IMG/VR virus record: IMGVR_UViG_3300043774_000033
Coordinates: 1-26,218 of that record
DNA: 26,218 nucleotides
Reading direction: 5' to 3' (one strand)
Origin: a virus
Shown here piece by piece: positions 8,941 through 18,892 of the stretch (the first letter of the stretch is position 1; each line of letters opens with the position of its first letter). Both the position numbers and the translations under genes were made by a program. The notes below the pieces were generated by a model. That model did not search any database, was not told where the DNA came from, and worked only from the letters and a program-made list of their open reading frames with translations.

Positions 8941-9654
8941 TTAGACCTCTTCCAGAGTAACCTGTATATCCCAAAAGTCAAAGTTACTAGATCCACGCTT
9001 AACTACCGAATAAGAAAAATCAGAAATAAACATTTCTATGACTTGGCTATATTTTGAAAGTTGAAGATAGGCCTGGGCATTGTCTCCAAAGTTTGTGTGC
9101 TTGTCGTAAGATAAATAAACCCAAAAAGAACCCTTGTGCTGTTCATACCAGTCTAGAATTTCTACTCCACCAGCACCGCCATCGGTTGTGTACTGTAGCC
9201 TAGTAGAATCCATACTAGCAACGGCACCACTTTCTTTTCTTGTTAGTCCTGAAGTTACTAAGCTTGGCTTTCCAGTGCTTTGGTCAAAGCTGGGGATTCC
9301 TGCGAATCCTCTAGAAGGAAGGTTTTCCCATGAAGTAGAAATTGAAAGTTTGTCTGCAATATGATAGGATCTCATTCTGCCATTAATCATTCGTTCTCTT
9401 TTTTCAATTCTTTCATTTTTAAAATCAATAGATGATCGGTTATCATCTGAAAGAATTAAAAACTGATCTAGCAAGTCTAAATCAGTCACCCCAGTTTGAT
9501 TTGAACCAATCTCATTTCCAGTTGGAACAAAGTACCTTTGCTCTTGTGGAGTTCCTGCAGAAACAATTTGAAGAGTGCCAGGGTTTTCTGACCACAACAT
9601 AGCTTGTGGCCTAGCATACTTTTTGCGTCCTAGCATATAGTTTGATGTAGCCAT
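8941..9654 (-). CDS. Distal tail (Dit-like) protein (237 aa)
   Basis: Lies between tape measure and hub, the usual place of the distal tail protein that caps the tube and carries the tip. The protein is beta-rich, with a long strand-rich C-terminal half (GSFWVYLSYDKH, AYLQLSKYSQVIEMFISDFS, NFDFWDIQVTLEEV), and has no signal peptide or membrane segment. Its 237-aa length is within the range of Dit and Dit-like minor tail proteins. It starts by TAATG overlap with the tape measure stop. Family assignment is by position and fold style; no diagnostic motif was seen. Confidence 0.75.
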   Translation of the reverse strand: MATSNYMLGRKKYARPQAMLWSENPGTLQIVSAGTPQEQRYFVPTGNEIGSNQTGVTDLDLLDQFLILSDDNRSSIDFKNERIEKRERMINGRMRSYHIADKLSISTSWENLPSRGFAGIPSFDQSTGKPSLVTSGLTRKESGAVASMDSTRLQYTTDGGAGGVEILDWYEQHKGSFWVYLSYDKHTNFGDNAQAYLQLSKYSQVIEMFISDFSYSVVKRGSSNFDFWDIQVTLEEV

Positions 9655-12600
9655 TAGAACCTATTGCTCCTCATTCTTTGATCGTCTAGTCCGTGAATTT
9701 GTTTTCTAACGGCTCTAGCAATTTCGTCAGGGTTTGCGTCTGACTTAACCATAACATTAACACTATAATTATACACTGAACCGCCAGATCCTGCAAGAGA
9801 TCCAGTCCTATTAATCTCCTGAAGGTTTCTTAGTCCAAATTTATCAACAGATGGCTGCTTAACTACAAACTCTCCTGGAGTTAACATTGCTGGGATTGTG
9901 TCTGTTCCAGAAGCAAACATACTAAATAGCTTTGTTGCAAATCCTCCAGCTTTCATGTACCCTGGAACCTTTCCTCCAAGGGCAAATCCAGTGACCCCAG
10001 CCTTAGTAAAGATAGCATTTGCCTGAGCTTTTGTTATTTTTGCAATGTAGGCGTTAATCAGGCTTTCTATTTTATCCGCATTAGTAAGTCCGCTTGCTCC
10101 AGCAGCGTCTCTAAGTGCCTTTGAAACTTTGGGGGCAACGACAGGAGTATTTAGTGCTTTTCTAATTCTGGCTCCTTGAATTGCTGGAGTGTCATCGTTT
10201 ACAACTGCAGGTGCTGCTGGGCCAGTAGGCCTAGGGGCTGCTGGTGGTGGGTCGTTTACTGGTTGGCTGGCTGGTCCAGTTAGCGATACTGGGTTAGAGT
10301 TTACGTTTGCCCATGCTGCAGCTAGTTGTGGAATTAAAGCAATAGCGTCAACAATACTCTGCTTGTATGCTTCAGACTTAATACGTGCTATATCAATAGC
10401 ATTTTGGTTTGCCTCCCATTGTGCCCTTGTCTGCCCCAAGTAAGTCAAAGATTGAATAATTGAGTTTTGTATATAGTCTGCATTTTCTAGCGCTCTCTGA
10501 GCTGGCTCAAGAGTTTTTTCTTCAATGTCAAAAATTTCATCTTTAATTCTTTTAATTTCTTTTTCAATTTCTGCTCTCGATTTTCCGTCTGCAGACCTTA
10601 CTTGCCCAAGGGCTCTCTCTCTAGCTGCCTCAATTGTTCTACGCTGTGCCTCGAGCCTTTGCTGTGCTTCTTTTGCCCTAAGCTCTTGGGCTGCCTTTGC
10701 AGCTGCTGCAATGTCACCTCTTGATAGCGCTTCTGCAACGGTAAGCTGAGACTCTTGTCTTGCAGCCATTTCTCCATTAGCCTCATTAGCTTTTTCAATT
10801 GCTTCAAGTCTGCCATCATATGCCTTGTTAATTTCTTCTTCTTGTTCTGCAATTCCTTGAAGAGAGGCCTCATAATCATCGAGCTCGAACTGATGTTGTG
10901 CGATTGCCTCTTGTGCATCGGCAATTGTTTCTTCAAGTTCTGCTGTATTAATTAAGTCAGCGTTTTGTCCGCTAAGATTTGTTCCCATCTGGAAGTCTAG
11001 CTGTACCTGAGCTTCTAATGCATCTAGTCCAGCAAGTGCATTACTAACTCCTTCTGAGGCAACCTCTTCCATGCCTTCTGGTGTTGCAAGCTTTATTTGA
11101 AGCTCAATTGCTTGCTGGCGACGCAACTCATTAAGATACTTTGCAATCCAGCCTGCGGACAGGGCTCCATCTGCTAGGTCTGCTGCTAGTGCTTCAGCCA
11201 TATCTGGGTTAGAAAGAATTGTTTCAATAGACTCTAAGCTTAATCCCATAGCGCTAAGCTGTGGAATAATCTTCGCAAAGTCTGCCGATATGTTGTTAAG
11301 ATTTCTTGTTTCAATAAAAGCGTCTTTGTTAGAAAGGTTCTTAGTTGCAGCATCCACTGCTCGAATAAGCTCCAGGAGCTCTCTCCATTTTTGTGTTCCA
11401 ACCTGAGTGGTTGCAATTGCGGCTGCAAGGATTGGATCTTTTGCTGCCCTAAAGGCTTCCCCAATACTCAAGCCTGCGTCACGAAGCTTGCTGTAAGCAG
11501 AGCTAGCCTCTCTAATTTGCTTTTGCTGTTCTTTAAGATCTTCAATAGCTTCTTGTAGTGGTGTTTTCTTTGGTGCCCCACCGCCGCTGAACGTCCTTGA
11601 TGCTGCCTGGAAAGGAGAACTAGCAAGAAGGCCCTGAAGTTCTTTCCATTTATCAATTACTAGCTGTTGGCCTGCTGCATTTGTTTCTGCAGAGAATGCA
11701 GACAAGAAGTTAGCATCCGAAACCATCTTCACTGCTTCTGCTGCACCAATTCCATTAGCTATCAAAGTTTGGTATGCAAGGTCTTGTTCTTTAATCTTGT
11801 CAATTTGCTCTTGCATTGCAAGAGAAGCTTCCTGCCCTTCTGCAATAGCTGCCTCTTGGTCAGCCTGAGCTTTTTGTGATGCGGTTAGCTCTATAGTTGC
11901 TTGAGCTCCATCCCTTACAACGGTGTTTAATGCTTTTCTAGCGTCATCAGCCTTTTTAGTTTTTGCATCATCTGGAGTTCCATCTTTAGCTGCCTCTTCT
12001 GCTTCCTTAAGTGCATTTGCATAATCTGCTACCTCGTCAGCACTTAGACCAGTTGCGGCAGCTTGAAGAATTAAGAAAGCGTCGGTAGTGCTAGTAATTC
12101 CTTCAAGAAGTTCTGTGGCACCAAGTTGCGTTGCTAAATCTGGAAGAACAATGGCTGCTGTTTTTTCGTCTAGGCTTGCAAAGTTTTGGTTTAAGATTGC
12201 CATTTCTGCATTAAACTCTGTGGCATCCATTTGACCATTTACAAGCATAGTGTTCATGGATGATAGGCTTGAGGCCAAAGCGCCTGCGACAAGAGAGGTT
12301 TCAGCTGTTGGTGCGGCTGTTGTATCAGGAACATCTACAGTGCCATAAGCCCTATATCCTGCACCACCAGTTCCCTGCCCAGAAACTGGGTTTTGTTGCA
12401 AAGCCCCCATGGCTTGTTCTAAAGCAGCTCCAACCTGAGATGGATTTGTTTTAACATCTATAGATGAGAAGGTTAGGTCAAGGTTTTTCTTTCCAGCTGC
12501 GTCTGCTAGGGCCTTAATAATACCCTCTACTACCGCTTGGGGAGCACCTCCAGCAGAAACACCTTCAGCAATTGATTGCAAAATTATTTGAGCTTGTTCA

Positions 12601-15600
12601 TCTCCCGCACTCTTAAGAGCTTCAATATCTGCTGCATACTCTTTCAGGAACTCTTCATCGGCAGATCTTTCAGCAGCTACCTTTTCAGCTTCTAGAGAAG
12701 TCGTTCCTCCGCCCTGGAATGCAGTATCCAGTGTTCCAGTTTGTGCAGTAAACCCATAAATCTCTCCAAGCTTTTTTATCTGGTCAGCAGTAACAAAAGC
12801 TGCGTTACCCATAGCAGTAATTGCTTCTTTTTCTTTTATCTTAGCGGCAATAGTAAATCCAATAATTGTTGCAAGTGCTGTTACTGCCAAAACTACAAGA
12901 CCAATAGGACCCAGGAATGCAGTCATTGCCACTCTTGCAATTGTAAGAGTTCCAGCAAGAGTTCCTGCAGCTGCAGCGCCCATGGCTGACTTTGCAGCCT
13001 CAATAGCTTTCATTGCTATAGCTTTTCTTCCCACAATTAATTCCTGTAGCTTCATTGCAGTTACCGCTTGAACAATTTGGATTAGTCCAAAAAGGCCAGC
13101 AGAAATCATAGAAATTGCGCCAGAAAGTTCTCCAAACTGACCACCAAACATAGAAAGAATTCCACCTAGGCTAGCAACACCAATAGACAAACTTGTTATC
13201 GTGTTTCCAGTATTTTCAAATGCCCTGCCCAACTTTGAAGCTCTTTGAGCATTTTCTTCGTTTGCCTTAGAAGCGTTTTGAGAGGCTACCCCCAAAGCAA
13301 CTAGTGCTGGATGGGCTATCGGGACTGGACCAGTTGCCTTAGTAGCTTTTTGGGATTCAGTTTGATTAGAGAATTGAACGGCAGGAGCTGGACCCATAGT
13401 TCTTCTATTTCCAGTGGCTCCTGCCTCGGCAGAGTTTGCAAGCTGCTCTCCAGCAACAAACATGTCATCCTTGCCAGACTCTAATCCTTGCTTTGCACCG
13501 CTAACAAGGTTTTCACTAGACTGGTCCATTTCTCTTGAAGGAGAACTAGCTCCAGAAGCATCGTTTACCGCTTCTGCAAGCTGTCTATTAGTTCTTTCAA
13601 CTATTCGCCTACCAGCATCTGTTACTGGAACTGGAGTTGCTCTTCCATCTGCTTCGGCGTTTCCTTGTGCCATTGCGGCGGTAAGATTTGCTTGAGCATT
13701 AGCAATTTGAGCTGGAGTGCGAGAGCCGACTCCTGGGCTGGCTGGGCCTTGAGCTGCCCTAGCATCGGCACCAGCAACTGTAGCCTTTGCATTTGCAATA
13801 AAGTCTGGAGACAGATTGCTCAAAATCTCGCTATCGTCTAAGATGTTTCTTAAAACTTGAGCCTGAATCTGTAGCTCTTCTTCAGTTAAAGCAAGGTTGG
13901 CATTTATCTTTCTAAGAATTTCTTGCTTTTGATCTTCTGATGCTTGCTCTTCAGTAAGATTGTTTAAGTTTTCTGTGTAAAGATCTCTTATCGGACCAGA
14001 GGATTTGATTGCGTTGCTTAGCTGATTTTCAAATGCTGCTTGAGCTACCCAAAGGTCTTCATTCCAACCTTCTTCAAATTGTTTTCCGACACCATCAACT
14101 TCTGCAAGGTGAGCCCTGTGTATTTCTCCAGCCTGAGTTACTTTGCCAGCAACCTCTTCTGCAGTCATTCCAACTGACTCATAGTACTCAAGCATTGCAG
14201 CTTTGCCAGCATTTGCCGAAGCGGTAGCTCTATCGAATTCTTCTTGCCCAGCTGCACCCTTGGCTGCGACTAGATTTGCTTCTACTCCACCTCTTTTTCC
14301 AGAAGCAGAAGCTTTTCTTTCAAGCTCTTTTCCTGTAGCTATTTTTGTAGCTTGTCCTGGCCTCATTCCGCCAAACTCTGTAGCAACAACCTCAAGCTCT
14401 GCCTTAAAGTTTTGAAGAGTTAAGCCAGTCCTGTCAGCAAGTCTTGCAAAGACTTCTTCAATAATGTCTTCTCCATTATCAACAGATTGTCTAAATTGCT
14501 GAGCATAAAGCTCAAGATCTCTAGCAGTTTTTTGTCTAGCTGTATCTATTTGGTAACTTGCTGCAGGAACTGTAGTGGTTCCTCGCACCTGTTGTGGAAC
14601 GTTTACTGAACCTCTTACAAATCCAGGGATACTGCCCTCAATCATTGCAGCAATAAATCCACGGTTCTTTTTTGCCACGGCAGCTGGGATAACTGCTTCG
14701 CCTGGTTCTAGGAATGCAGCAATCTTATCACCCTTACCAGTACCTGGAACCATTGGAGTTCCCTTAGAGAATCCTGGAACAGCCTTTGGCTTTCTAGGAG
14801 TTGCAATCTTAACATTTGAGTGTACGGCATGGAACTTGCTCCAGTCAACGCCTAGACCAGCTTCGAGCCTTCTAATCATGTCATCGTAAAGTCCAACCTC
14901 AGTTGGGTTTGTTAGTCCAAATGATGCTACAGTCTGCTTTAGTTTTGGAAGAACCTTTGTTATTTCTGCAATCATCTTTTGGTGGTACTGGGCTGGAGTT
15001 AGTCCAGCCATCAGTCCAAGGGTTGATTCTGCAAAAGCTCTCTTAGCACCACCCTTAATTCCAAGTAGATTAATGATTGCTTGCTCTTCCATTGAAGGCA
15101 AGTTTCTGTCATAATCTCTTAGCCCAGATGCCCTATTAAATACCCCAGCTGGACCAGCGTCTGCAACTACGTTTCCGTAAACGTTTGAACCAGACAAATC
15201 TTTATCAACACGAAGAAGAGATGCAGTAAGCTGTCTAAAGTACTGCTCTTCGTTAAACACACCCATTGGCTGAGTATTAACAAACTTGGCATCAAGATCG
15301 GACTCTAGAGCCAAGAATCTTCTTATGCCCTTTACGTCCATTGGATCTTTAATAACTACAATTCTTTGCTGTGGAGCCTCTAGGCCGTGTGCCATTCTAG
15401 AAATTTCAGTCGAACGCATTTCAGCAAGTGCTGCTTTTTCATCTAGTACTGGCTTTACGAATACCTGCTTGTTACCCTTTTGGTATACTCCGCCCAGCCC
15501 AAAGATTGGGAAGCTGTGTCCAGTAGTTTTGCTAATTTGGTGACCGTAGTTTGTAGGAGGAACATTAGCATACGAACTCTTTTTAAACATCTCATAAACT

Positions 15601-17819
15601 TCATCTGCAGCGGTACGGTTTTTTGATACTGACTTTGCAGATTGTGGCATTCCCAAGAAGACGCCCTTTGCGTAACCTGGAAGATCTCCTGCAATCATAC
15701 CCTGAATTAGAGGGGCATACTTCTTTGCATGCTTAGCTGGAATAACCGCTTCTCCAGGAGAAAGCATTGCTGGAACAATATCTCCTGCACCCTTTGGTCC
15801 TGGAACTGAAACAACTCCATTAGCATACTTTTGAGTTGGCGTAGTTCCTCTAGCAACACCGCCTGGAACAGAGAATGCTCTTTGTGCATTAAGACTTCTT
15901 GTGTATGCTGCTGTGAGCAAGTCAACTGCAGCTGCCTCAGAGGTGAATGTTTGTTTTAGTTTTGAATGCACCTGGTCTAGGGAGGCAGCTACGGAAAGTG
16001 AGCGAATCTGCTCTTCTGTCATGTAGCTTGTTTCTGCTCCAACACCAGTAGCCTGACCACGAAGCTTTTGGAATACCTGGCCAATCATTCCAACACCCTT
16101 GATTAGGTTTGCAACACCGTTCGCAAGCAGACCAACAACCATTAGAACAACTGGACCAAGGCCAGCGAATAGTAGAGTGGCTCCTGTTATAAAGCCCTTA
16201 ACTCCGCTATCAAGCTTATTAAACTCTTCTAAAAGCTTAGTTCCAAATTCAATAACTGGTGTAATTGCTTTTAGGAATTCCTCTCCAACTGGAGCAATTG
16301 CAGCTTTTAGATCCTCAATTGCTTTCTGGAATTTAAATGTAGAAGACTCTTCAATTTTTCCAAGCTCTCGGCTAGATAGCTGTGCCAGCTCTTCTACTGT
16401 AGCGTTTGTTAATTCTAGAACCCTACTTGCCTGGGTACCATCTCTAATTACGTTTTGGAAAAGAGTTGATAGACGAGAAAACTGGAATTTACCAAAAAGT
16501 TGTTCAATTGCCTTGGCTCTGTTTAGAGGATCTAGCCCGTCTAGCGCTCTAGCAAAATCAGTTACAAGCCCAACAACGTCACCTTTGTTTTGCTGAACAA
16601 TGGCTTGGATATTAATTCCAAAGCCTCTAAGCATGTCGCTAGCAACCCCAGTTGGGTTAATGAGAGATGCAAGACCAGATTTTAGAGCGTTAGCACCTTC
16701 AGATGCGTTAATTCCACCTTCTCGCATAGCTGTTAGCAAGAATGCTAGGTCTTCTACGTCTCCACCAAGCTGCTTAACAACTGGACCAGCTTTTGGAACT
16801 GCAATGGTTAGGTCTGCAATAGAAGTAATGGTTTGGTTTTCAACTGCGTTTAAGAAGTCAATTTTATTTGCAAGGTCTTCTGTCGCAACACCAAAGGCAT
16901 CTGTTATAGATATAGTGGTCTTAAAAGCTTCGCCAAGCTCTACGTTACCCAGAACACCTAGCCTTGTTGCTTCAGTTACCTGTGCGGTTAGAGCTGCACC
17001 AGTCATACCAGTAGCTGCTGCCTGCGCTGCAAGGTCCATCGTGTCTGTAAGCGCTACACCATATTTAGTAAACTCTCTTGCAAGAGTTTGAATTTCTTCA
17101 ACCATGGCATTGGTTTCAGCTTCGCCAGTCATTAAGTCGCCATAAACACGCTTAAATTGAATAGCCTGCTTTTCTAGATCCATAAATGTTTTTGCAGCCA
17201 TGCTTCCAAAAACGCTTAGTGGAAGAGTAAATCCAACCATGAGCTGACGACCAGCCCACTGAGTATTCTTACCCCAGTTAAGAAGGTTGGTAGATCCTTG
17301 CTTTAAAAGCTGATTAAAAAGTTGCTGTTTTTGAGCATTGATTGCAGTTTGTGTTGCTAGGTTTTCCATGTCAAGAACAAGTGGACGAACCTTGATAGAT
17401 TGCATTGCACCGTTAGCATCACGGCCTAGCTGAATGTATTGAGTCTGTAAGTCTTTTACTCGTTCACGAGCGACTTTGTTTATTGTTGCAAACTCGGCAG
17501 CAAAGTTTTTGCCAAAAGTTTTTGTGGATGCCCCAGCATACCTAAAATATTCTCCAAGGGAGAACTTGTTTTTTTCTAGTGAGTTTGTAAATGACTCTGT
17601 TGTCGTTCTGACATTGGTCATGCTTGCAGCAAATTTGCCGCTAGCGTTTAGAGACTGAATTAAATCTTTTTGAAGGTTAGAGGCAGCCGCAGCGTTAGCG
17701 GCTGACCCCTTCGCCATTGCGGTATGAAAGGCTGATATTTCTCGCTGTAGATTCTTGATGTTTGCTAGCGCTGCGCTAGTATCAATATCTATTCTAATAT
17801 TTGACTGAATATCAGCCAT
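9654..17819 (-). CDS. Tail tape measure protein (2721 aa)
   Basis: Sets tail length and threads through the tube. Residues 1-190 are helical/coiled. Residues ~205-560 fit the TP901-type tape measure core (FMDLEKQAIQFKRVYGDLM, GGDVEDLAFLLTAMREGGIN). Hydrophobic segments lie at ~541-575, ~1541-1590 and ~1620-1660, probably for membrane insertion at injection. Long Ala/Glu coiled-coil tracts fill ~1100-1350 and ~1900-2480. A kinase-fold-like domain sits at ~768-1002, between two copies of a GD..PAMLSPGEAVIP module, with a third copy at ~2611-2665. At 0.15 nm per residue the tail could reach ~400 nm, an upper limit since globular inserts would not count. Start ATG 17819 has AAGGGA upstream and lies 16 nt after the short chaperone. 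Confidence 0.96.
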   Translation of the reverse strand: MADIQSNIRIDIDTSAALANIKNLQREISAFHTAMAKGSAANAAAASNLQKDLIQSLNASGKFAASMTNVRTTTESFTNSLEKNKFSLGEYFRYAGASTKTFGKNFAAEFATINKVARERVKDLQTQYIQLGRDANGAMQSIKVRPLVLDMENLATQTAINAQKQQLFNQLLKQGSTNLLNWGKNTQWAGRQLMVGFTLPLSVFGSMAAKTFMDLEKQAIQFKRVYGDLMTGEAETNAMVEEIQTLAREFTKYGVALTDTMDLAAQAAATGMTGAALTAQVTEATRLGVLGNVELGEAFKTTISITDAFGVATEDLANKIDFLNAVENQTITSIADLTIAVPKAGPVVKQLGGDVEDLAFLLTAMREGGINASEGANALKSGLASLINPTGVASDMLRGFGINIQAIVQQNKGDVVGLVTDFARALDGLDPLNRAKAIEQLFGKFQFSRLSTLFQNVIRDGTQASRVLELTNATVEELAQLSSRELGKIEESSTFKFQKAIEDLKAAIAPVGEEFLKAITPVIEFGTKLLEEFNKLDSGVKGFITGATLLFAGLGPVVLMVVGLLANGVANLIKGVGMIGQVFQKLRGQATGVGAETSYMTEEQIRSLSVAASLDQVHSKLKQTFTSEAAAVDLLTAAYTRSLNAQRAFSVPGGVARGTTPTQKYANGVVSVPGPKGAGDIVPAMLSPGEAVIPAKHAKKYAPLIQGMIAGDLPGYAKGVFLGMPQSAKSVSKNRTAADEVYEMFKKSSYANVPPTNYGHQISKTTGHSFPIFGLGGVYQKGNKQVFVKPVLDEKAALAEMRSTEISRMAHGLEAPQQRIVVIKDPMDVKGIRRFLALESDLDAKFVNTQPMGVFNEEQYFRQLTASLLRVDKDLSGSNVYGNVVADAGPAGVFNRASGLRDYDRNLPSMEEQAIINLLGIKGGAKRAFAESTLGLMAGLTPAQYHQKMIAEITKVLPKLKQTVASFGLTNPTEVGLYDDMIRRLEAGLGVDWSKFHAVHSNVKIATPRKPKAVPGFSKGTPMVPGTGKGDKIAAFLEPGEAVIPAAVAKKNRGFIAAMIEGSIPGFVRGSVNVPQQVRGTTTVPAASYQIDTARQKTARDLELYAQQFRQSVDNGEDIIEEVFARLADRTGLTLQNFKAELEVVATEFGGMRPGQATKIATGKELERKASASGKRGGVEANLVAAKGAAGQEEFDRATASANAGKAAMLEYYESVGMTAEEVAGKVTQAGEIHRAHLAEVDGVGKQFEEGWNEDLWVAQAAFENQLSNAIKSSGPIRDLYTENLNNLTEEQASEDQKQEILRKINANLALTEEELQIQAQVLRNILDDSEILSNLSPDFIANAKATVAGADARAAQGPASPGVGSRTPAQIANAQANLTAAMAQGNAEADGRATPVPVTDAGRRIVERTNRQLAEAVNDASGASSPSREMDQSSENLVSGAKQGLESGKDDMFVAGEQLANSAEAGATGNRRTMGPAPAVQFSNQTESQKATKATGPVPIAHPALVALGVASQNASKANEENAQRASKLGRAFENTGNTITSLSIGVASLGGILSMFGGQFGELSGAISMISAGLFGLIQIVQAVTAMKLQELIVGRKAIAMKAIEAAKSAMGAAAAGTLAGTLTIARVAMTAFLGPIGLVVLAVTALATIIGFTIAAKIKEKEAITAMGNAAFVTADQIKKLGEIYGFTAQTGTLDTAFQGGGTTSLEAEKVAAERSADEEFLKEYAADIEALKSAGDEQAQIILQSIAEGVSAGGAPQAVVEGIIKALADAAGKKNLDLTFSSIDVKTNPSQVGAALEQAMGALQQNPVSGQGTGGAGYRAYGTVDVPDTTAAPTAETSLVAGALASSLSSMNTMLVNGQMDATEFNAEMAILNQNFASLDEKTAAIVLPDLATQLGATELLEGITSTTDAFLILQAAATGLSADEVADYANALKEAEEAAKDGTPDDAKTKKADDARKALNTVVRDGAQATIELTASQKAQADQEAAIAEGQEASLAMQEQIDKIKEQDLAYQTLIANGIGAAEAVKMVSDANFLSAFSAETNAAGQQLVIDKWKELQGLLASSPFQAASRTFSGGGAPKKTPLQEAIEDLKEQQKQIREASSAYSKLRDAGLSIGEAFRAAKDPILAAAIATTQVGTQKWRELLELIRAVDAATKNLSNKDAFIETRNLNNISADFAKIIPQLSAMGLSLESIETILSNPDMAEALAADLADGALSAGWIAKYLNELRRQQAIELQIKLATPEGMEEVASEGVSNALAGLDALEAQVQLDFQMGTNLSGQNADLINTAELEETIADAQEAIAQHQFELDDYEASLQGIAEQEEEINKAYDGRLEAIEKANEANGEMAARQESQLTVAEALSRGDIAAAAKAAQELRAKEAQQRLEAQRRTIEAARERALGQVRSADGKSRAEIEKEIKRIKDEIFDIEEKTLEPAQRALENADYIQNSIIQSLTYLGQTRAQWEANQNAIDIARIKSEAYKQSIVDAIALIPQLAAAWANVNSNPVSLTGPASQPVNDPPPAAPRPTGPAAPAVVNDDTPAIQGARIRKALNTPVVAPKVSKALRDAAGASGLTNADKIESLINAYIAKITKAQANAIFTKAGVTGFALGGKVPGYMKAGGFATKLFSMFASGTDTIPAMLTPGEFVVKQPSVDKFGLRNLQEINRTGSLAGSGGSVYNYSVNVMVKSDANPDEIARAVRKQIHGLDDQRMRSNRF
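9825..9989 (-). repeat. Tape measure repeat module, copy 3 (C-terminal)
   Basis: Encodes residues ~2611-2665: GFALGGKVPGYMKAGG then SGTDTIPAMLTPGEFVV. The core matches copies 1 and 2, but the Gly-rich PGYMKAGG element comes before the PGE core rather than after it, so it is a partial or permuted copy. Confidence 0.65.
14604..14777 (-). repeat. Tape measure repeat module, copy 2
   Basis: Encodes residues ~1015-1072: VPGTGKGDKIAAFLEPGEAV, then IPAAVAKK and AAMIEGSIPGFVRG. It has the same order of elements as copy 1, and the two copies bracket the kinase-like domain. Confidence 0.8.
14814..15518 (-). other. Kinase-fold-like domain inside the tape measure protein
   Basis: Residues ~768-1002 differ from the surrounding coiled coil. 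In order: a Gly-rich strand-turn (FGLGGVYQKG, 773-782), a VFVK strand with K789, a helix with E800/E805 (AEMRSTEISRMAHGLEAP), a DKDLSGSN segment (D874, N879), then VVADAG (D887, G889) and a helical C-terminal part (PSMEEQAIINLLGIKGGAKR). This order matches the K-E-D..N-D.G layout of protein-kinase, PI-kinase and HipA-like folds. Assignment is by eye; activity is unproven and the domain may be structural. Confidence 0.4.
15660..15830 (-). repeat. Tape measure repeat module, copy 1
   Basis: Encodes residues ~664-720: VPGPKGAGDIVPAMLSPGEA, then VIP, AKK, GMIAGDLPGYAKG. It matches copy 2 at 14604-14777 along its length and the core of copy 3 at 9825-9989. The core GD.VPAML.PGE.V is familiar from other tape measure proteins. 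Confidence 0.8.
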
Positions 17820-17835
17820 TCACTACACTTCCCTT

Positions 17836-18153
17836 TTAGCGACTTGCAGGATTGTTAAGATCGCTCAGACGTGCGCCCGATGCCTCTTCAACAATTCTGT
17901 AAACAGTTGGCAAGTCAAGCTGCTCTTCCAACTCTTTAATGTCTGTCGCTAGTTCTGGCTTGTACTGCTTCATAGCGATCTGGACACACTCCATTAGCAG
18001 GTTGATAGACTTTTCATTGTCTTCTGCTACCTTTGCAATACCCTCAAATTTCTTAGTGAATTCACGTAGTAGTGAAATCTTTAGCGGACGTACCGCAATT
18101 TCTGTTCCATCAATTAGTTTGATGGTGCTCTGCTCATTAATTGTTGTTGCCAT
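17836..18153 (-). CDS. Tail assembly chaperone, short form (105 aa)
   Basis: A small helical protein with the layout of gpG-type tail chaperones, which keep the tape measure protein soluble and recruit tube subunits. It aligns over almost its whole length with the N-terminal ~97 residues of the upstream 231-aa protein (shared PLKI, LREF, MKQY, PE, DLPT.Y.I), about 40 identical positions by hand. It ends without any long tail domain. It lies 16 nt before the tape measure start. The ATG at 18153 has GAAGGAA as Shine-Dalgarno, and an extended -10 lies ~31 nt further up. No convincing slippery heptamer was seen near its 3' end, so it appears to be expressed only as the short form. Confidence 0.88.
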   Translation of the reverse strand: MATTINEQSTIKLIDGTEIAVRPLKISLLREFTKKFEGIAKVAEDNEKSINLLMECVQIAMKQYKPELATDIKELEEQLDLPTVYRIVEEASGARLSDLNNPASR

Positions 18154-18196: not shown

Positions 18197-18892
18197 TCAC
18201 TTAGTTTTTTTGGTTAAATCTTGGTACCCAAGGCCCATACCAATACCAAACCCTGCCTTGGCTGCGTTAGCTCCTTGAAGAGCCACCACGTCATTTGCGT
18301 CAGCTGTTCTTCCTCCGCTAAAATGCTTGGCTTTCATCTTTTGCCAGGCATCCTGGCCATTATTCTTGCCCTTATCTATGTCAATCCCTTGGATTGCTGC
18401 AAGAAACCTTTTTTCCTCATGGTCTAGCTCTCGTTTTGACTCAAGTGTGGCCACTAGCTCTGGCATAGACAACGATGTTTCCAGCTCTTCATAGTCTTTC
18501 CAAATTCCTAAAAGAAAAACTTCTGACTCTAGCTTGGCTAAATCAAGCTTTTCCCAAGTAGTACCACTTTCAACTGCCTGCTGCTTTACAGGCTCCTCAG
18601 ACTTTTCGCTAACCTTAATCCCTCCTGCTACGTCAATAATCTTATATATCGTTGGCAGGTCAAAAGAGTCCTCTAAGTCTTCTGTGGTTTTTATTTCTGG
18701 GTAGTACTGCTTCATAGAAATTCTAGCACACTCTACCAGCAAACTAATGGCCTCATCGTCATTTGCCGCAGATCTGACCTTTTCTAAAACTATCAGGAAT
18801 TCTCTTAAGTATTTAATCTTTAAGGGGGTGATATAAATATCTACGTCGTCTACAGTCTTGACGGATGCGCTATCGTATATTTTGGTGGCCAT
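18197..18892 (-). CDS. Tail assembly chaperone, long form (231 aa)
   Basis: Residues 1-97 are paralogous to the 105-aa protein encoded next. Residues ~110-175 form a second, helical domain (WEKLDLAKLESEVFLLGIWK, YEELETSLSMPELVATLESK, HEEKRFLAAIQGID), and the C terminus is Gly/Ala-rich (GANAAKAGFGIGMGLGY). This is the architecture of a gpGT-type fusion, normally made by frameshift from the short gene, but here it is a single continuous gene with its own stop (TGA) placed before the short one. Start ATG 18892 has no Shine-Dalgarno; a TATAAT ends 6 nt upstream, so its mRNA is probably leaderless. It likely works with the short form during tail tube assembly around the tape measure. Confidence 0.87.
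   Translation of the reverse strand: MATKIYDSASVKTVDDVDIYITPLKIKYLREFLIVLEKVRSAANDDEAISLLVECARISMKQYYPEIKTTEDLEDSFDLPTIYKIIDVAGGIKVSEKSEEPVKQQAVESGTTWEKLDLAKLESEVFLLGIWKDYEELETSLSMPELVATLESKRELDHEEKRFLAAIQGIDIDKGKNNGQDAWQKMKAKHFSGGRTADANDVVALQGANAAKAGFGIGMGLGYQDLTKKTK

Follow-up and report, generated by a model that had tools for sequence, protein, structure and literature searches.

The tape measure gene and its surroundings

The window, meaning here the whole stretch of 26,218 nt that was analyzed (IMG/VR record IMGVR_UViG_3300043774_000033), stems from a tailed phage and encodes a tape measure protein (TMP) of 2721 aa. This ORF is matched by Pfam PF10145 (E 6.4e-25), by phrog_10030 (E 7.9e-99) and by further TMP PHROGs. 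Its gene is placed between the tail chaperone and minor tail genes, with two phrog_10504 genes immediately upstream, in the same order as in annotated Stanwilliamsviridae phages. Genes for the portal, head maturation protease, major capsid protein and an Ig-domain tail protein, as well as tail-chaperone-like genes, are also found upstream. The two phrog_10504 genes (17836-18153 and 18197-18892, both on the minus strand) match this family over their first ~100 aa each, which looks like a duplication of a tail assembly chaperone.

The nearest cultured phages listed are Streptomyces phages of 121-134 kb, with ~28-34% identity in the TMP core and ~43% in the capsid protein; all four of those whose TMP regions were read belong to the Stanwilliamsviridae. 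The G+C content of the window is 38-45%. No host is named in the collections used; we infer that the phage is of freshwater origin and that its host is probably a low-GC actinobacterium.

The features discussed below are compiled in Table 1. The kinase-fold cassette sits between the two hydrophobic regions of the TMP, and in the window a linker of ~65 aa (PGPKGAGDIVPAMLSPGEAVIP...IPGY.KG) flanks it on both sides; the PGE motifs of the two copies are found at residues 688 and 1039. A third, shorter copy of this linker is present near residue 2648.

Table 1. Position of the cassette, its motifs and the surrounding regions of the tape measure gene in the window.
Feature	TMP residues	Window position	Strand	Basis
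Tape measure protein, carrier of the domain	1-2721	9654..17819	-	PF10145, phrog_10030, gene order
Conserved TMP core, common to kinase-bearing and kinase-lacking relatives	1-620	15960..17819	-	
First hydrophobic (membrane-like) segment	542-576	16092..16196	-	Kyte-Doolittle 19-residue scan
Linker 1 (PGPKGAGDIVPAMLSPGEAVIP...LPGYAKG), upstream border of cassette exchange	656-725	15645..15854	-	
Kinase-fold cassette	727-1008	14796..15641	-	74-sequence alignment, AlphaFold2 model, Foldseek, 134 distinct homologues
Codon of K789, beta-3 lysine in VFVKP	789	15453..15455	-	Invariant 134/134
Codon of E800, helix C glutamate	800	15420..15422	-	Conserved 133/134
D-L-S-G-S-N, catalytic-loop-like motif (DLxxxN)	874-879	15183..15200	-	D874 and N879 invariant 134/134; after predicted helix 857-870
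D-A-G, DFG-like putative metal-binding motif	887-889	15153..15161	-	D887 and G889 invariant 134/134
Linker 2, second PGEAVIP linker copy	1012-1075	14595..14786	-	
Second hydrophobic region	1565-1589 and 1625-1662	12834..13127	-	Kyte-Doolittle 19-residue scan

A predicted kinase-order fold within the tape measure protein

Structure prediction by AlphaFold2 on an alignment of 74 sequences, cut to the domain, yielded a model with a pLDDT of 92.6 and a pTM of 0.91; a shallower first model, built on 29 sequences, had reached 79 and 0.78, respectively. The predicted domain opens with a helix (728-746) and a strand (761-764), followed by a glycine-rich turn containing G767, S769 and G777, a strand at 777-781, the strand that carries K789 (784-791) and the helix that carries E800 (794-809). 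Two further strands (819-824 and 834-841, the latter with a hinge-like LES) lead to the helix 857-870, the D874-LSGS-N879 motif, two short strands, D887-x-G889 and a loop. Helices at 910-919, 942-966, 972-990 and 994-1001 complete the model, the last three being predicted at high confidence. The order of elements is thus that of a kinase: beta3-alphaC-beta4-beta5-alphaE-catalytic loop-beta7-beta8-DxG-C-lobe.

Searched against the PDB with Foldseek, the model from 74 sequences gave 562 matches at E<=10, none of them at E<=0.001. The best 50 of the 562 are all kinases, CtkA being the first, and the top three have probabilities of 0.93-0.97 (up to 0.97 for CtkA) with TM scores of 0.34-0.40. With the shallower model, all 50 matches listed are kinases and HipA, and in the viral models of BFVD it found only weak matches, many of which are giant-virus kinases. 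Kinases are abundant in the PDB, and this biases Foldseek toward kinase matches; that kinases alone appear among the listed matches is still informative despite this bias.

A sequence-only reading of the window had proposed a kinase-type domain inside the TMP at 14814-15518, and the matches of the ORF to PF10145 and phrog_10030 agree with the assignment of the carrier. These coordinates translate exactly into residues 768-1002, and G767/G777, K789, E800, E805, D874, N879 and D887 all lie where that reading had put them. It located the domain correctly but made it too small, the actual extent being ~727-1008. The residue layout it described is borne out by the kinase order of the predicted elements; the model is of mixed alpha/beta type, not the all-helical or non-kinase fold that would have spoken against it, and the proposed structural search listed kinase-fold matches from two models, CtkA and HipA ranking high among them. 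Of its suggested link to protein kinases, HipA and PI-kinases, the fold is supported, whereas membership in the HipA or PI-kinase families is not supported at the sequence level.

Sequence relationship to known kinase families

Searches of Pfam, PHROGs and PDB sequences with phmmer and hmmsearch returned nothing convincing for the domain or for any of the 74 family members. Matches to a C-type lectin, a designed protein and leucine-rich repeats were dismissed as weak chance hits. No kinase family is among the Pfam matches listed for the 74 members, the domain has D-K-D in the position of the HRD motif of the canonical Pkinase family, and HipA_C (PF07804) was likewise matched by no member among the listed Pfam families. 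On the predicted model, the domain is a protein-kinase-like fold of a new sequence family, matched by no Pfam or PHROG family.

A profile-profile comparison by hhalign was made with 11 diverse HipA proteins; plasmid homologues of HipA were used, as the close copies in IMG/VR are nearly identical and useless as a profile. The score was 23.9 at a probability of just 1.6%. Neither the reversed profile nor any of 60 HipA profiles with shuffled columns scored as high, the best of the latter reaching 20.4. The alignment places VFVKP onto IIKLP of HipA, with K789 in register, and 'GLEAPQQRI' onto 'GLNVPDAEI'. A remote homology between the domain and HipA is at most suggested by this comparison.

Conservation and purifying selection

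Conservation was assessed on 134 distinct domain sequences from 316 kinase ORFs, with pairwise identities down to 34% and a median of 49%. K789, D874, N879, D887 and G889 are invariant in all 134, and 30 of 284 positions are invariant overall, including also D872 and L875. K789 is the single invariant one among the 22 lysines of the domain; the invariant aspartates are D872, D874 and D887 of 14, and the invariant asparagines N879 and N917 of 13. Because K789, D874, N879 and D887 had been chosen beforehand from one sequence, their conservation is an independent test, and the loss of K789, D874 or D887 among homologues, which would have counted against a kinase, did not occur. Simple combinatorics within residue types puts the probability of all four being invariant at ~2e-4 (1/22 x 3/91 x 2/13). 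Regarding the two helix glutamates picked out at the same time, E800 is conserved in 133 of 134 sequences, with glutamine in locus L115 as the sole deviation, while E805 is not among the conserved positions.

In protein kinases (HRDLKPEN) and in HipA (DxHxxN), the distance from the catalytic aspartate to the asparagine is five residues, the same spacing as between D874 and N879. The invariant D872, which the sequence-only reading did not single out, precedes D874 at the catalytic position, so that D-K (D872-K873) stands where HRD has His/Arg, giving D-K-D vs H-R-D. Between relatives, dN/dS is 0.08-0.22 and thus about 0.1 (NG86 counts), these values being rough since several of the pairs are close to saturation at synonymous sites.

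Restriction to tape measure proteins

With the domain alone as query, 35 IMG/VR contigs were found, and alignment queries retrieved overlapping sets of 264, 451 and 322 contigs; at most 80 loci of each search were analyzed, and all counts of relatives rest on these. Scans of 50,697 phage records (cultured phages) and of 84,980 prokaryote genomes (one per species) detected no relatives, both scans relying on short conserved peptides, which very distant relatives could escape. A single match to a terminase in the phage records (E=8) was regarded as chance. For 131 of the 134 distinct domain sequences the TMP core is present in the same ORF, and the other three are accounted for by contig edges or a frame break; in L109 and L288, whose kinase ORFs lack the core, each contig carries part of the ORF alone. 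Among the loci examined in these collections, the domain is thus confined to TMPs.

Its prevalence was taken from a sample for which the TMP core was the sole criterion, as loci L002-L116 had been selected by the kinase and are unsuited for this purpose. This sample comprises 62 distinct cores, and the kinase is present with 34 of them. The four TMPs tested from Streptomyces phages (Stanwilliamsviridae) have neither the kinase nor the linker.

Exchange of cassettes behind a conserved linker

The identities of core and kinase are weakly correlated (r=0.30, from pairs that are not independent). L151 and L311 share 97.4% of the core and 48.3% of the kinase, and the window and L057 share 56.5% and 84.9%, respectively. 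Presence or absence of the kinase can differ at core identities of 90.9-94.0% (L042/L122 and L165/L138), and where L122 is aligned with L007 (from the contig of L042), or L138 with L165, the alignment breaks off at residues ~718-728, where the linker ends. The domain is a cassette that is exchanged downstream of this conserved linker, nearly identical cores being followed by divergent kinases, by another cassette or by none.

In closely related TMP cores, the kinase slot is filled by a DUF3626-like cassette, which we take to be possibly ADP-ribosyltransferase-like. That of L133 (8657-9649) matches PF12294 at E 3.3e-6, just under the curated cutoff, and is related to those of L122, L124 and L132; L134 has a DUF3626-like cassette at the same TMP position as these four. 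A subset of relatives carries, downstream of the kinase, a HAD IIIB/PNKP-like phosphatase cassette (PF03767, E 1e-15 to 1e-18). In L035 (10017-10430, TMP residues ~1433-1570) it has complete FDxDDTLLD and TAR motifs and accompanies a kinase in the same TMP, as it does in L014, L016, L019, L021, L025, L030, L031 and L036. All 36 ORFs with the HAD cassette bear the kinase, and no kinase-lacking TMP has it. The association is weak (14/100 with the kinase vs 0/25 without, p=0.07) and the TMP of the window has no HAD cassette, so an obligate pair of kinase and HAD phosphatase was rejected for now.

Further cassettes, several of no recognized kind, replace the kinase or are added to it in individual groups. 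A cassette with a GAHQPFTVAHE motif and no profile match, presumably nucleotidyltransferase-like, occurs in L188 (8618-9100) and, after the kinase, in L060 and L176. In a large subgroup of TMPs (L142, 4904-5881; L147, 7603-8580; L152, 8438-9415), ~250 aa of at least two unrelated-looking types are inserted between linker and kinase. L005 (6378-7880) has an extra cassette of ~480 aa before the kinase, with linker copies at its borders and no Pfam family, and L006 has one at the same place. Across homologous TMPs, the enzyme cassettes thus comprise the kinase and the HAD phosphatase together with the DUF3626-like and nucleotidyltransferase-like ones; in the window copy, the kinase is the one identified.

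Proposed function and alternative explanations

Taken together, the computational evidence makes it probable that residues ~727-1008 form a complete, catalytically competent kinase-like domain, which serves as an exchangeable payload cassette in the TMP of freshwater, probably actinobacterial, siphophages. The prevailing view is that TMPs are injected and that the DNA channel consists of them. The domain would bind Mg-ATP with K789, E800 and D887, and D874 would act as the catalytic base in ATP-dependent phosphotransfer. The kinase cassette would ride in the tail lumen and exit with the TMP during DNA ejection; once delivered, it may phosphorylate some target of the host, whether membrane-located or cytoplasmic, thereby favouring infection or blocking a defence. 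Two studies illustrate such steps in other phages: the TMP of P23-45 carries a virion RNA polymerase which acts at infection (PMC10770324), and the lambda TMP was placed beside inner-membrane proteins during injection by proximity labelling (PMC13190303). Against delivery it must be said that a folded kinase has to be stretched or partially unfolded in the narrow tail lumen.

Several other explanations compete with that of a delivered kinase. Kinase folds catalyze other transfers too, and an enzyme of different chemistry or with a non-protein substrate, acting by AMPylation (as SelO), glutamylation or the phosphorylation of lipids, nucleotides, RNA ends or small molecules, is a minor but real contender; the HAD IIIB/PNKP-like cassette (DxDDT) added in some homologues would suit it, as a kinase-phosphatase pair would. 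Every canonical phosphotransfer residue is in place, however, including D874 at the catalytic position, and the HAD association is as weak as described above and does not extend to the TMP of the window. Less probable is a kinase whose substrates are proteins of the tail, including the TMP, and which works before infection, inside the virion or the cell that produces it, in assembly, length control or triggering of ejection, and not in the new host. In favour of this reading, the domain belongs to a structural protein and its delivery is a proposal. Against it, with about half of the sampled core-related TMPs lacking it, the kinase is not needed for tail building in general. Since, in addition, unrelated cassettes replace it at 91-94% core identity, the pattern is more that of a payload than that of a component for assembly.

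Pseudokinases are widespread, and the sequence-only reading had allowed for an inactive structural relic, which might act as a spacer or binding module. This is very improbable, as the catalytic residues are invariant down to 34% identity while most positions vary, and a dN/dS of about 0.1 indicates purifying selection. A chance series of motifs in an ordinary TMP region without a kinase fold would accord with the modest Foldseek E-values and with the lack of a sequence profile match; it is scarcely credible in view of the high-confidence AlphaFold2 model, of kinases alone among the listed structural matches of two models and of the invariance of catalytic residues named beforehand.

Judging from the exchangeable kinase, the tails of some phages may contain interchangeable enzymes that enter the host along with the DNA. 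We tentatively extend this to a polymorphic payload system of freshwater, probably actinobacterial, phage TMPs, in which the core and C-terminus are constant and enzyme cassettes are swapped at the repeated PGEAVIP linker. By analogy to polymorphic toxins, and equally tentatively, such cassettes may enter together with the DNA and serve to modify the host or to act against its defences. Enzymes brought in with phage DNA, and the structural part carrying them, are known for very few phages. If the proposal is true, the TMP is more than the ruler and DNA channel that it is usually taken for, and also carries exchangeable cargo. A TMP-only kinase family swapped among near-identical TMPs would then offer a direct, testable handle on what such phages do as infection begins, in bacteria that are dominant in lakes and difficult to cultivate.

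Comparison with known systems

Phage enzymes that modify host proteins early include the ADP-ribosyltransferase Alt of T4, a protein of the head that is injected with the DNA and has no kinase function, and the T7 kinase gp0.7, which is made after infection. The window domain would resemble them in its presumed action on the host. Its best structural matches among those listed are the Ser/Thr kinases CtkA and HipA; it has the DxxxxN spacing in common with them, and FVKP...E...GLxxP...I in its N-lobe aligns with HipA in register. Unlike these, it has no HipA_C match and is located in a TMP instead of a toxin-antitoxin operon.

Regarding the carrier, the TMP of P23-45 likewise bears an enzyme, which acts at DNA entry, but there the enzyme is an RNA polymerase in an N-terminal position (PMC10770324), whereas the kinase-like cassette follows the core and is exchangeable among relatives. 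The Sle1/Tme effectors of Actinobacteria are also TMP-derived proteins with an exchangeable functional domain and membrane segments; they differ in being effectors of contractile injection systems with C-terminal domains, and the word "kinase" is absent from the paper (PMC13277306). Kinase-superfamily domains have been described in polyvalent proteins, i.e., giant multidomain phage proteins for which injection and the modification of host proteins were predicted and a cassette-like exchange was also proposed (Iyer et al., 2017; PMC5512222). The presence of several enzyme cassettes in a giant multidomain protein, a trait of polyvalent proteins, is found across the homologous TMPs. Polyvalent-protein kinases, which occur mainly in (pro)phages of the Verrucomicrobia-Chlamydia group and of Bacteroidetes, have, according to their description, no C-terminal subdomain at all (PMC5512222); in contrast, the predicted window domain keeps the helices 942-966, 972-990 and 994-1001, matches no Pfam family and is carried by the TMP of a probable actinophage. 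A search of the open-access literature found no TMP reported to contain a kinase domain. With polyvalent-protein kinases and actinobacterial injection system effectors already described, the novelty thus lies in the kinase-like family and in its carrier, while the strategy itself is a known one.
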